Below the pieces are notes generated by a model that did not search any database, was not told the DNA's origin, and worked only from the letters and a program-made list of their open reading frames with translations. A stretch of 64,000 nucleotides of DNA from Labia minor. Lineage: Eukaryota; Arthropoda; Insecta; Dermaptera; Spongiphoridae. Where the stretch lies: contig OY720348.1 in the NCBI GenBank assembly GCA_963082975.1, positions 51,782,421-51,846,420 on the forward strand, in the 5' to 3' direction. Both the position numbers and the translations under genes were made by a program. Each line of letters begins with the position of its first letter. Within the stretch, counting starts at the first letter, position 1. Of this stretch, positions 5,936 through 15,673 are shown piece by piece.

Positions 5936-6570
5936 TTACCGACTGACGATAGTAAGGGAGGTATTGTTTTCACACCAAATTTCACATGTGGAGATTTTTA
6001 CATATCTCCACGAATCATGCATTTTCTTAACAGAAAAAAGTATTTTTAGCATGATGTCTGTCCGTCTGTCCGTCCGTCCGTATAGTTGTGTACAGCTTGA
6101 ACGGCTCAACGGATTTTGATGAAATTTGGTATATTTACTTAATGCATCAGTATGATGAATTGATCAACTTTTGGTGCAAATCCGGAAACCGGAAGTGGTA
6201 GTATTAGCGATCGACGATAGGAAGGGAAGGGTTATTTTCACACCAAATTTCACATGAGGAGATTTTTTACATATCACCACGAATCATTCACTTTGTATTG
6301 GTTTTATCCTCGGAAAAAAATCATCTTTATTAGTTTTTTCTTAATTTAAAATTATATGACCTCATCCAGCCCTTCATGACGTCACAGCCTTGTCTTACAT
6401 ATATATTATAAATAAAATAAAATTAAAAATATTTATGTTATATCCATATCTATTTTAATTACATTAATAGATATATTAAAATTATTTGAAATTGTTTCTG
6501 TAGCTGGAAATTAATTTACTTCAAACCGTCGGTCGGTTCGGACCTAGCCACAGGTCAACTTATTTAAATT
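5936..6570 (+). mobile_element. Family B/F Helitron-like element (copy B1)
   Basis: It begins TTTACCGACTGACGATAG and includes two direct copies of an approximately 85-bp block (from 5948 and 6212; shared TCACACCAAATTTCACATG). Between them are a (GTCC/GTCT)n run at 6058-6082 and the core ACGG-N14-ATGAAATTTGGTA-N31-ATCAACTTTTG. It ends near the palindromic ACCGTCGGTCGGTTCGG and CCACAGGTCAACTT. The inverted copy at 24545-25207 confirms both ends. Confidence 0.75.
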
Positions 6571-6619
6571 TGTTTCATTAAAGAAAAATTAATCAAAAAA
6601 AAAAAATATTTTTAGAAAT

Positions 6620-6995
6620 GAAGTTCATCCGGAAGGGAGTCATTACCTACCACGTTGTCATTTTGTTTCCTTTAAACTGACCTTAAAAAAAAATTTAGAT
6701 AGATTTTTGATAGATTTTCACATGATTAAAAATTGTATAAAACGGCTATATATAAAATTTCTGCTTGATTGAATCACTGAAAGTATCGGAATTACTTCTT
6801 TTACACGTTGGCTGGGAATCACGCACCAGCACGTGACATGGTGCCATCAACAAAGACCCAATCACGCGCTGGTATAATAAATATTTTTATTAATTTTAAT
6901 TTATAATTGTTTATTAATTAAATTTAATTTAAATATAATATATGTTTATTAATCCAATTCGAAATTTGCGAGATAGTCGAGTGGAGACACTCCAG
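6620..6995 (-). mobile_element. Family A copy A3, left arm of a large inverted repeat
   Basis: Reverse-oriented family A from the CATTACCTACCACG block to ACACTCCAG, with the GC module CACCAGCACGTGACATGG. It shares private variants with the inverted copy at 8010-8367 (GGCTGGGAATCACGC next to CGTGT and an AGAAGTAATTCCGATAC-type block). It therefore arose by inverted duplication of one locus rather than by independent insertion. Confidence 0.85.
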
Positions 6996-7130
6996 ATGTT
7001 TTTTCTTATTAACAATTTTTGAAATGAGATTAATCAACTACTACTCAACTAATGGATCTTTGTATAATAAATATAGTGGCGTGATTAAAAATGTATACAT
7101 AATCAGAAATTTAGTAATTCATCCTTGTCA
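6996..7130. repeat. Inner part of the left arm of the inverted repeat
   Basis: About 120 bases (with ACTCAACTAATGGATCTTTG) recur as the reverse complement at 7876-7996 with very few differences. It is flanking DNA carried along with family A in the inverted duplication. Confidence 0.85.
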
Positions 7131-7838
7131 ATACCATCGATTATTTATCAACTATGTATTATAGTAACTATGACCAGAGCTGGTTAATTGCACGAATTCG
7201 AATAATAATAATAATAATAATAATAATGATAATAATAATAATAATAATAATAACAATAGATATTTGGTTGAATATTCACAGTGGATTCATAAATGAGGCT
7301 ATGCATCCCCAGGGACGATGCCGATAAGCATATTATCTTCTATTAGCAAAACCCAAATGCAAGGAGGAGTTGAGTGACTCGCTTTAAGCGCAATGAAATT
7401 CAACTTCATGAGTAAAATCTGCGCCCAGCCATGCGGGGTGAAAATCTCAGAATTCAAAATAAATTGAAATAGTGAAAGAGAGACAGAGAATGAGAGTGGG
7501 TGGGAGAGTGAGAGGGATAGAAACATAATTCCTTCGTCAGAGCTTACTTTACAATAGATATCCAAAAGCAATTTTATACAATAATATATACTCGAGTTCA
7601 AATTAGGTTTGGATCAGGTTTCAGCAAAATAACAGCTGAAAGTTGCAATTTTAACTTACCTGGAAAAACGAATCATTATATTGTATGAATCCCCATATAG
7701 AAGCAATTTTCAAAAACTTTTTTGATTCCGTTTAAATCAAAATATTACCAATCCAATTATGATCAATATAAATATAATTAATAATATATAAAAATGAATA
7801 TTTTTTATTTATTCTTGTAATGTAAAAAAAAAAAAAAT
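7131..7838. other. Loop of the inverted repeat, with an (AAT)n microsatellite
   Basis: The spacer between the two arms. It contains an (AAT)n array with interruptions (7202-7256) and a less A+T-rich part (7300-7530) crossed by a 100-residue minus frame with no domain, in which a polypurine stretch gives serine/leucine low complexity. I do not regard that frame as a gene. Confidence 0.5.
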
Positions 7839-7875
7839 CTGGATTGTCTCCACTCGACTATCTCGCAAATTTTTT
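7839..7875 (+). mobile_element. Family A left-end fragment
   Basis: CTGGATTGTCTCCACTCG followed by ACTATCTCGCAAATTT is the family A left terminus alone. It sits at the inner edge of the right arm of the inverted repeat, so that arm has a family A end on both sides of the 120-base segment. Confidence 0.8.
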
Positions 7876-8009
7876 GATAAGGATGAATTACTAAATTTCT
7901 GATTATGTTTACATTTTTAATAACGCCACTATATTTATTATACAAAGATCCATTAGTTGAGTAGTAGGTGATTAATCTCATTTCAAAAATTGTTAATAAG
8001 AAAAAAAAT
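7876..8009. repeat. Inner part of the right arm of the inverted repeat
   Basis: Reverse complement of 6996-7130. Together with A3 and A4 it makes inverted arms of roughly 490 bases each, separated by about 740 bases. Confidence 0.85.
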
Positions 8010-13190: not shown

Positions 13191-13191
13191 A

Positions 13192-14030
13192 GAAAAAATT
13201 GTGTATATTTGTATTTGTGAAGTATTAAACCGTTGTAAAGATTTTTTTTGAAATTCATACCATATATTTTTTTATAAAGAAAAATCAAATAGAATTGGAA
13301 ACAGCATCGAAAAAGCCATCATTGTTAGTTTTTTCTTAATTTAAAATAGAAATTTTAATAATAAAAAAAAAAATGGTGCCGGGCAACTGTGGATAGTGCT
13401 TCTTTAAATACAAAATATTATAAATAAAATAAAATTAAAAATATTTATTTTAATAATATTTTGTAATCAAATTACAAAATAAATATTATATTATATCCAT
13501 AGACCATATTTTTCTGTCTTTCGCTGTATTAATACGTACGTTCAAGGGGTGTATGTTTTATGACTATTTTTTTTTTAATTTATGTTTTTTTTTAAATTAT
13601 TTGAAATTGTTTCATATATTTTGTCGTTTATTTATTTTAAATAATAATCTTAATCTTAAATATTCATATTATTAAAGCTTTGGTGGTTGTTTTTATTTAT
13701 AACGGAATTTTGTAAATTAAACCACAAATTGATATTTGTTATTGTAAATTTATTCAAAAAATACAAATATACACAACGTTTCGATTGCTACTTCTGCAAT
13801 CGTTAATATTAAGGATCATTCGTCACTTGTCACTGGACACTCGAACAGTGTAGTCGTTTGATAACGATTGCAGAAGTAGCAATCGAAACGTTGTGTATAT
13901 GTTTGTATTTTTTGAATAAATTTACAATAACAAATATCAATATGTGGTTTAATTAAATATTCATAGTTCATAAGGAATAATTATTTTAAAGTACCGAGTG
14001 GCGGTTTGGTGAACCAGGAACTAATATATA
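13192..14030 (+). mobile_element. Family F Helitron-like element (copy F3) carrying an inverted repeat
   Basis: It shares with the reverse copy at 57808-58300 the blocks GTATTAAACCG, TTTTTTGAAATTCATACCAT, ATGGTGCCGGGCAAC, AATTATTTGAAATTGTTTC and ATATTTTGTCGTTTATTTAT. The right end, GAGTGGCGGTTTGGTGAACC followed by AGGAACTAA and TATA, resembles the hairpin-plus-CTAA 3' terminus of Helitrons. A perfect-stem inverted repeat (13717-13954) is inserted within it. Confidence 0.65.
13717..13954. repeat. Long near-perfect inverted repeat (~88-bp arms, 57-base loop)
   Basis: Left arm 13717-13805 and right arm 13863-13954 are reverse complements with few changes. Each contains GATTGCAGAAGTAGCAATC followed (in the right arm) by GAAACGTTGTG. 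The short stem CGATTGC/GCAATCG followed by GAAA recalls the stem II-GAAA part of hammerhead motifs in Penelope-like elements. The upstream core is TTGATAA instead of CTGATGA, so a functional ribozyme is unlikely. A single diverged copy of the right arm is at 61379-61470. Confidence 0.75.
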
Positions 14031-14042
14031 TATATATTGATA

Positions 14043-14092
14043 AAACCGACTTGATAGGCGTTGTCCTTGCGTAGGACGTACAAAGTCAGATT
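14043..14092 (+). mobile_element. SINE-like family D tail fragment (copy D2)
   Basis: Only the conserved tail remains: AACCGACTTGATAGGCGTTG, TCCTTGCGTAGGACGTAC, AAAGTCAGAT. It is bounded by (TA)n on both sides. Confidence 0.7.
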
Positions 14093-14994
14093 TTATATAT
14101 ATATATATATAGGGGATTAATTTTACTCGTATACCTATATTGACTGTTTGCAAGATTCAATAAAAAAAAAACATATAAACTCCAAAACACATATAAAATA
14201 ACAGAGTATAACAGTTTCATTAAAATATATTTATACTCTGTTCTTATATTCAAGTTAAGTAAACATATCAGGAATCCGTACGAAAAACACGAAGGATATT
14301 TTTCAATGTGAAGTAATCATTCTCAAAGTGAAACATTAAATTAATATTGTATCAAGAAAAGGATTCCCATTCACAAAATAAAAATAAAAAAGGAGAAGAC
14401 AATCCATTTTATCAGCGTGTAATTGAGTAATGTTCGTTGGATAAATTCTCATGTCCAATTAAAGAATCCACTTCCCTAGAATGAAGAAAATTATTGTGAA
14501 AAGATTTGTTAAATAAAATTACAAATATATAACTAAATATATATATATATATATATATATATATATATATATATAATTTATGAAAAAAAGAAAGAATAAA
14601 AAAAATGAAGAAATTAAAGTAAAATAACAGTAATTGTGGTGTCTAAAGTGAAAGATGGAATTCTTTTTAATGGAACAAAGCATTTCCTAAATTATTTTTT
14701 TTATGTGTAAATTTTAATATACTTTTCTATATTAACAAGAAAAAAAAATGTCTTCAGTGAAAAATATTATTTTTGTTATATTGGAATGTCAAAAATCAGG
14801 AGATTGAATTTTGGACCACTGCTAAGTATCGGATTAACTTAAAATTTTCTATATGAAATTATCATTAATTAATTAACATTAATTATTGATAACCTGATTC
14901 TATTATAATTTTAAATTAACCAGCAGACATTATATGTAAGATTATTATTACTGAAGTTTGTCACACACACATACTCACTGTAAACCACGTTTTT
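14093..14994. other. A+T-rich spacer with a long (TA)n array
   Basis: A (TA)n array of about 20 units lies at 14536-14575. Otherwise the stretch shows no gene or shared repeat. Confidence 0.55.
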
Positions 14995-15673
14995 ACTATC
15001 TCGCAATAGATAGTATTGCGATCACGAAAATTTTTGATTTTGATGTTTTTATACGTTTTGAAAGTCCCTGAGTCATTTTCACTAAGGTTGAGAAAAATGT
15101 CTGTCTGTCTGTTTCTCTCTCTCTCTCTCTCTCTCTCTCTCTCTCTGTGTGTGTGTGTGTGTGTGTGTGTGTGTGTGTGTGTGTGTGTGTGTGTGTGTGT
15201 GTGTGTGTGTGGACACGATTACGCAAAAATGGTTTGAGCTTGAATAATGAAATCTGGTACACGGGCATTATTCAAAATTCGTAGTTTTCTATCAACTTTT
15301 GAGAAGTGTAGCTCTTTCGGAAGAGGACCATTACGTACCACGTTTTCATTTTTTTCTCTAAATTGTCCGTAAAAATAAAGATATATGTTTGATAGTTTTT
15401 CCCATGATCAAAAATTGTATAAAACTGCTATATATTGAATGTCAGCTTGATTGAATCGCTGAAAGTATCGGAATTAATTTTTTAACACTGCATATCACGC
15501 GCCAGCACGTGAAGTGGTGCCATCAACAAAGACCCAAACACGCGCTGGTTTAATAAATATTATTTATTAATTTTAATTTATAATTTATAATTAATTTTAT
15601 AATTTAATTTAAATATAATATATGTTATTTAATCCAATTCAAATTGCGAGATAGTCGAGTGGAGACACTCCAG
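14995..15673 (-). mobile_element. Family A copy A6 (full length, expanded microsatellite)
   Basis: Reverse-oriented and complete. It starts with the hairpin end ACTATCTCGCAATAGATAGT and ends TGGAGACACTCCAG. The internal array is greatly expanded: (GTCT)n, (CT)n and then (GT)n from 15098 to 15211. The GC module is GCGCCAGCACGTGAAGTGG. The 90- and 73-residue frames across it are translations of the microsatellite. Confidence 0.95.

Follow-up and report, generated by a model that had tools for sequence, protein, structure and literature searches.

Two families of interspersed repeats, A and B, lie in a 64,000-nucleotide stretch of the Labia minor genome (contig OY720348.1, positions 51,782,421 to 51,846,420 of the forward strand; this whole stretch is called the window below), and the locus raises the question of why elements that differ almost everywhere carry the same short words at the same distances. 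The original prediction, made from the letters alone, took this arrangement as a sign of one superfamily. Our analysis shows that A and B, together with a third family, C, have the anatomy of HINEs, which are non-autonomous, DINE-1-like Helentrons, and that A and B very probably inherited a core of about 110 bp from a common Helentron ancestor.

A spacing-fixed core in three repeat families

The pattern ACGG-N14-ATGAAATTTGGTA-N31-ATCAACTTTTG, proposed as common to A and B, occurs exactly in one copy of each family in the window, at 6101-6173 (plus strand, family A) and 11781-11853 (minus strand, family B). With up to 3 mismatches it is found at five places (3682 minus, 6101 plus, 11781 minus, 15229 plus and 48174 plus), and it was absent at this tolerance from 100 dinucleotide shuffles of the window; the B copy at 15229-15301 reads ATGG and ATGAAATCTGGTA, two letter changes that leave the spacings as they are. 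The distance from the 13-mer ATGAAATTTGGTA to the 11-mer ATCAACTTTTG is kept in 6 of the 10 core-bearing window copies (2 A, 8 B). Five bp are missing at the GGTA of the 13-mer in the A copy at 25034 (minus) and the B copy at 18733 (minus), so that the exact A spacing within the window comes from one copy, and the 11-mer is lost from the B copies at 38009 (minus) and 49812 (plus). The proposed arrangement is borne out, with these deletions in 4 of the 10 copies counting against it.

Across the 604-Mb source genome the 13-mer ATGAAATTTGGTA has 51,242 matches, against 36 for its reversed control, and ACGG lies 1-30 bases ahead of it in 45,353 matches, some counted twice (control 2). The 11-mer follows the 13-mer after 17-46 bases at 36,293 places, and CCGGAAG follows the 11-mer after 0-30 bases at 38,840 (control 0 for each pair); all these counts require exact words and therefore miss copies with deletions inside a word. 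Among the 100 matches listed for the ATGAAATTTGGTA-ATCAACTTTTG pair, all within the first 3 Mb of contig C1, the gap was N31 in 98, N32 once and N33 once, and among the 100 listed for ATCAACTTTTG and CCGGAAG it was N15 in 98, N5 once and N14 once. The length from ACGG to ATGAAATTTGGTA in the matches listed was mostly N14 and also N6, many A copies having a second ACGG. Since copies within one family are not independent, the spacing evidence is the comparison between families. A chance likeness of AT-rich words could appeal to the frequency of the 13-mer in shuffles when 2 mismatches are allowed (mean 11), but we consider it vanishingly improbable, given the absence of the full pattern from the shuffles, the count of 0 for the reversed control of the 36,293 paired matches and the fit of the third family.

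The original prediction named three words, whose fixed spacing is borne out; the likeness extends through a block of about 110 bp. We compared consensus sequences from alignments of 19 A and 16 B copies, near full length and picked by hand (24 and 20 matches cover more than 60% of the query), and found that at equal offset they share AACGG, ATGAAATTTGGTA, ATCAACTTTTG and AACCGGAAG, with a further word, ACCGGAAGWGG, N14 downstream of the 11-mer in both families. Over the core window 61 of 106 positions are identical, the best of all offsets, while the next best offset, the reversed and reverse-complement controls and the maximum of 60 shuffles all gave 55. Eight intact cores (2 A, 3 B, 2 C and 1 from a Helentron described below), chosen from 54 strong hidden Markov model (HMM) matches, several of the remainder of which have deletions, align without gaps over 111 columns, 45 of them invariant. 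Of 110 positions, A and B share 61, A and C 62, and B and C 77. The letters of the core may resemble those of the DINE-1 core.

Family C was met around an A copy in stretch L012 with an extra 13-mer match nearby, and again in the list of matches to the 10-mer GAAATTTGGT. Its two copies, in L012 (9133 to about 7932, minus strand) and L026, are 92% alike, and have inverted repeats ACTTTCCCGCATA and TATGCGGGAAAGT that match over 13 of 13 bp, a 5' inverted repeat, a TGTCTG/TG/TATG array and a 3' hairpin. Their core words have diverged, and N31 and N14 hold in both. The C core was recognised by eye, but spacing was no criterion, so that it amounts to a nearly unselected test of the spacing, which the core passed; together with the likeness of the A and B cores above controls, this upholds the common descent suggested at the outset. 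The C 5' end with up to 3 mismatches occurs 3,664 times in the genome, and the exact C pattern at one place only, the L012 copy itself; the exact pattern is too strict, as the L026 copy differs in both words.

The array-then-core order is common to A, B and C, and in each of the three sequences compared the core begins 156-173 bp in. As predicted, a microsatellite stands ahead of the core: (GTCY)n in A, and in B TGTCTGTC or TGTCTGTG, which passes into (TC)n, (TG)n or TATG. We also counted GAAATTTGGT in a 270-kb sample made up of the window and 22 stretches, 12 fetched for the 13-mer ATGAAATTTGGTA and 10 evenly placed on contig C10, which holds the window (loci L002-L005, L007 and L008, which overlap others, are omitted). 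It occurs 88 times (control 2), in 27 A cores, 18 B cores, inverted in A direct repeats 35 times, and at 8 other places.

A resemblance to the left half of the core (for example GGCTGAACCGATTTCTATGAAATT), with weak HMM scores, was seen in three further repeat contexts: L061 at 4767-4860 and 5529-5600 with L028 near 6050 and L019 near 9950; L011 near 6409 with L012 near 9245 and L017 near 335; and L001 near 1044. One of the three sits after a (GTCT)n array.

Anatomy, class and a candidate autonomous partner

Nearly every full-length copy of A and B has a T-run, a 5' inverted repeat, a GTCY-type or TGTCTG array, the core and an AT-rich body; some 20-30 bp in from the 3' end stands a sequence complementary to the 5' repeat, followed by a hairpin. 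These subterminal inverted repeats (subTIRs) measure 11 bp in most A copies (ACCGACCGACG...CGTCGGTCGGT), 10-13 bp in B and 13/13 in C; the hairpin after the 3' subTIR is present by sequence in all three families, and an inverted repeat beside the 5' subTIR is clear in B and C. Because their subTIRs and hairpins differ, the 11-bp subTIR rule by which HINE families are set apart in the relevant passages of PMC4067079 makes A, B and C different families of one superfamily.

The full-length A element of the window, delimited by the alignment of A copies, occupies 5933..6565 (plus strand). Its 5' inverted repeat, ACCGACTGACG here and ACCGACCGACG in most copies, follows the T run at 5938..5948, and the (GTCY)n microsatellite at 6055..6082 lies immediately 5' of the core at 6094..6204, in which ACGG takes 6101-6104, ATGAAATTTGGTA 6119-6131, ATCAACTTTTG 6163-6173 and ACCGGAAGTGG 6188-6198. 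At the 3' end stand the subTIR CGTCGGTCGGT (6527..6537) and the hairpin GACCT-AGCCAC-AGGTC (6541..6556). A direct repeat of about 91 bp flanks the core (left copy 5936..6025; right copy 6204..6294, 86% identical to the left) and carries the core's own 10-mer GAAATTTGGT inverted. The 19 aligned A copies are 614-681 bp long with ends that are nearly all alike, the copy at L025:9201 lacking the first 20 bp or so, and exact A 3' ends number 14,419 in the genome. The second A copy of the window, with the 5-bp deletion at the GGTA of ATGAAATTTGGTA, lies at 24555..25206 (minus strand).

Family B is represented at full length at 11411..12026 (minus strand), by a copy of the subfamily ending CTCCAGCTAATTTT whose core at 11753..11860 reads exactly ACGG-N14-ATGAAATTTGGTA-N31-ATCAACTTTTG-N14-ACCGGAAGAGG, and at 14990..15680 (plus strand), by a copy with TTTTTACTATCTCGCAAT and an inverted repeat at the 5' end and ATTGCGAGATAGT and the hairpin GAGTGGAGACACTC at the 3' end, the core of which (15222..15327) has the two letter changes in the fixed words. 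In the latter copy the 3' hairpin folds with z -2.5 and the 5' inverted repeat with z -3.0. The B subTIRs ACTATCTCGCAAT...ATTGCGAGATAGT are 13 bp long in this copy and 10 bp in most, and many B copies end in CTAA. Further copies lie at 3341..3957 (minus), 7998..8578 (minus, 5' truncated), 18304..18839 (minus, with the 5-bp deletion at the GGTA of ATGAAATTTGGTA), 37486..38176 (minus, second half of the core deleted), 47997..48654 (plus) and 49690..50255 (plus, end of the core deleted).

Several observations accompany these copies. Pieces of 35 bp like the A 5' end lie at 18580-18614, inside the B copy at 18304..18839 and beside an apparent deletion, and at 35102-35136 (97% and 100%); both are cut after GTTTT, and they make up 2 of the sample's 22 exact A 5' ends; a third suspected piece was no more than a diverged A copy of the usual kind. 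The two pieces may stem from rolling-circle transposition that was aborted, or be what deletions left behind. The B copy at 37486..38176 holds a tandem array of a 43-bp unit, 3.2 times at 37621-37759, like the central arrays of other HINEs, and two inverted arms (6886-7131 and 7874-8119), 97% complementary with 742 bp between them, consist in part of B 3' ends that face each other.

Non-autonomous arthropod Helitrons had been suggested; the kind was right, and the precise name is HINE rather than canonical Helitron. That the families might instead be canonical Helitrons or cut-and-paste MITEs (miniature inverted-repeat transposable elements) we regard as very unlikely. Helitron_like_N genes of other types do occur in this genome, and CTAA at many B ends fits the canonical CTRR, but it is the only canonical feature that fits: nearly all 5' ends are T-runs (TTTTTAC) and not TC, and the target is a T-run and not AT. 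A MITE would not be expected to have its 3' repeat some 20-30 bp inside, with a hairpin after it, and at the one empty site available, left by an A copy nested in another A, only a run of six A/T was used, with no duplication beyond T; one B was inserted at the TT of an A 3' end. The folding results weigh in part against assignment to HINEs. The A 3' hairpin is weak on its own (z -1.3; 22 of 200 shuffles fold as well), no clear inverted repeat stands beside the A 5' subTIR, and folding of the A 5' end does not exceed that of shuffles (z 0.72). The whole C stretch gave z -3.1 for its 3' hairpin, with a best fold that also uses subTIR bases, and an earlier, cut-off C stretch gave z 1.15.

PF14214 has 104 matches in the genome, and the longest frame among those listed, 2181 aa on the minus strand of C1, belongs to a 12-kb element (C1:47862604-47874782, minus strand) that combines a B 5' module including the core, this open reading frame (ORF) and a B 3' end. 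From its 5' end at 47874782 as far as about 47874032 the element is B-like, array and core (47874596-47874489) included, and part of B is duplicated internally; a family-A HINE lies inside the element (47872898-47872333), the ORF runs from 47870436 to 47863894, about 4 kb downstream of the core on the same strand, and the 3' end (47862649-47862604) corresponds to the last 45-46 bp of B only, at 96-100% identity. The ORF contains Helitron_like_N (PF14214, 1.1e-23) and PIF1 (PF05970, 1.6e-31) domains and ends with a weak match to Ulp1-type (C48) peptidases, under the Pfam cut-off; the putative endonuclease part has many further matches across the genome, at 33-41% identity. Of two more places that strongly match the sequence adjoining this 3' end, one, a second copy (C1:44.694 Mb), has the same B terminus with different flanks. 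On this domain content and these termini, the element is likely to be the partner of B.

Some findings speak against this pairing. The endonuclease match (PF14529, residues 1843-1928) has E 0.0011 and 19.2 bits, where the Pfam cut-off is 27.4, and one of three 3' sides (L067, among L062, L066 and L067), at C1:7.258 Mb, continues as a B-like 5' end and does not finish in the B terminus. It is also conceivable that the B-like 5' module is a B copy unrelated to the element, truncated at its 3' end and inserted ahead of the ORF, against which only one further junction argues: among 40 scored of 4,463 candidates, the 5' junction recurs once, on C60, at 98% (query 1-189), the one informative match since the query is mostly another repeat (query 283-621). 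That repeat type, seen at L065 1500-1838 inside the Helentron, is itself very abundant, with the 4,463 being first-look candidates. No autonomous partner of A was found, and the stretches downstream of two other Rep/helicase elements (L061 and L063) lacked every A or B end pattern that was looked for. Other elements with related helicase and endonuclease parts, at 46% and 57% identity, are candidate partners of A and C; frames of the helicase/endonuclease type, beside which ends of A or C may lie, are at C1:55796987-55798474 (plus) and C1:44701110-44702416 (minus).

The Helitron_like_N genes at C9:43365333, C9:45506044, C10:14925745, C1:82181971 and C5:81088381 share their score and their open frame of 1652 aa, a sign that Helitrons of another type may have been active recently. 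The cluster at C5:46739897-46792979, with at least 5 equal, broken Helitron_like_N matches in steps of about 5.7 or 9.8 kb, is a tandem array of a dead element.

What the core may do

Helentrons encode Rep, helicase and, at the C-terminus, an endonuclease, and transpose by a rolling circle that runs from the 5' end to the hairpin. The HINEs A and B very probably are internally deleted, non-coding derivatives of such elements. The core, set between the GTCY-type array and the body, would belong to the 5' module of the autonomous partner, as the element above shows for B, and would have come to each family from the common ancestor. The protein of the partner would nick at the T-run 5' end, and the strand would be peeled off through the 5' module until a halt at the 3' hairpin, with the core acting as a cis signal of fixed distances. 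Our best guess, at about even odds, is that the core is a cis signal read early in rolling-circle transposition, for instance a site at which Rep/helicase lands or opens the strands and makes contacts that hold the distances fixed; mere retention by descent is a possible but rather doubtful reading. More tentatively still than the signal itself, the core may be a protein-contacted, distance-fixed cis element that serves Helentron transposition whatever the subTIRs, a second and family-general recognition module next to the family-specific ends.

The earlier suggestion of a conserved functional unit or binding site stays a possibility only, and three results count against a function. Positions shared between families showed no significant excess of conservation within families, varying at 1.9% against 4.2% at other positions in A (p=0.076) and at 6.1% against 5.8% in B (p=0.545); deletions fall inside the core in 4 of the 10 window copies; and mite HINEs are reported without the inverted repeat and the core in the passages of PMC4067079 that describe them. 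A lack of extra constraint within families is what would be expected if copies decay neutrally once inserted, and the likeness of the cores between families would then reflect selection, or simply descent, in active elements.

The same lack of excess conservation would fit a core that is the promoter or untranslated leader of the autonomous Helentron gene, kept because HINEs are deletion derivatives, as would its place in the 5' non-coding part of the Helentron, ahead of the ORF and on the same strand; but the distance to the ORF is long, partly from nested insertions, and the core words are kept in tens of thousands of HINE copies, so that we hold this explanation, too, to be rather unlikely. 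Quite improbable, in our view, is a modular exchange in which the core was copied between HINE families by template switching or nested insertion and not passed on vertically. Templates for it are common, with A, B and C repeatedly nested or adjoining (one A inside another, a B at the end of an A, two cases of A inside C and one of A inside the Helentron), but had the core been transferred recently, a long run of highly similar sequence would be expected, whereas the core identities are graded, and core start and array-core order are alike in all three families.

A structured RNA, in which ATGAAATTTGGTA pairs with ATCAACTTTTG (11 of 12 positions with G-U) inside an outer helix of columns 15-20 and 88-93, is decidedly improbable, although the RNAalifold consensus has 4 pairs changed on both sides and 88% of its cells pair, which none of 500 column shuffles reached; by most measures the fold does well against such shuffles. 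The independent families are only three, and 38 of the 500 shuffles equal the both-side changes; part of the signal survives sliding by +1; single-sequence folds choose other structures, with z from -0.4 to -2.1 for six sense-strand cores and a better -3.7 for the antisense of one B core. A search of Rfam with two stretches, one A and one B, gave no match at the gathering score.

If the core is indeed a family-general recognition module, cores would be exchangeable between families and ends would not.

Known relatives and neighbouring features

Among the closest described counterparts is DINE-1 or mini-me (INE-1) of Drosophila, whose account in PMC2374699 gives, as here, 13-bp subTIRs with the 3' one subterminal, a partial 5' inverted repeat, a 3' hairpin, a GTCY-rich array in the 5' block, an adjoining core that outlasts changes of subTIR and insertion at TT or T-rich sites. 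The DINE-1 core of about 90 bp adjoins the GTCY array and is conserved between species whose subTIRs differ: 5 subTIRs occur among the 11 species, and the genome of D. willistoni has three types side by side (PMC2374699). Central tandem arrays are regular in DINE-1 but were met here once, in the single B copy with the array at 37621-37759. The text of PMC2374699, whose core alignment sits in a figure, contains none of the three core-like strings tried. HINEs of mite, Culex and Drosophila, as portrayed in parts of PMC4067079, likewise are non-coding, share termini with an element encoding Rep, helicase and endonuclease, have T strings at their ends and make no target duplication; the Helentron proteases reported there are OTU, whereas the ORF end here has the Ulp1-like match. 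The oyster Cg_HINE shares a subTIR, an inverted repeat, a GTCY/GTCC microsatellite and a 3' palindrome with our elements, but carries satellite-like tandem arrays where only one B copy has a short one (PMC7492417, passages on the element). The lepidopteran Hel-2 / MITE01 resembles them in its 5' inverted repeat, subterminal inverted repeats and 3' hairpin, and we count its (CTGT)n downstream of the 5' repeat as a further likeness, but its description in PMC4344730, as far as that account goes, gives TC/CTRR ends and an AT target, which are canonical Helitron ends and unlike those here.

Searches of the literature did not find the exact 13-mer ATGAAATTTGGTA, found GAAATTTGGTA only in papers unrelated by title, and met no spacing-fixed core beyond the papers cited, which does not deny its existence elsewhere. 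In viral contigs the full pattern and GATTTTGATGAAATTTGGTA had 0 matches. The 20 viral stretches with GATTTTNATGAAATTTGG look phage-coding, with 0-2 GTCY in the 150 bp before and no array, and the one place among genome contigs, in an Idiomarina metagenome-assembled genome, has no array that we could see; we rejected both as chance.

Two frames of other kinds lie in the window. A 628-aa stop-to-stop frame at 40978-42864 (minus strand) has the look of a hAT-type transposase carrying a BED-like zinc finger, with weak Pfam matches under the cut-off, and a frame at 10262-10663 (minus strand) with a Mos1-type HTH_48 (E 1.5e-22) is a mariner-like fragment.

Given the DINE-1 precedent of an array-adjacent core that outlasts subTIR change, the kind of element was already known; new here is that three families of another genome follow the same pattern, that their spacing is fixed and that an autonomous element is a candidate carrier of the core. 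The analysis identifies repeats that are highly abundant in this genome and ties one family to a candidate autonomous Helentron. As in the Drosophila report, the core persists in a single genome while the terminal repeats turn over, and the role of the DINE-1/HINE core becomes testable on a compact block.

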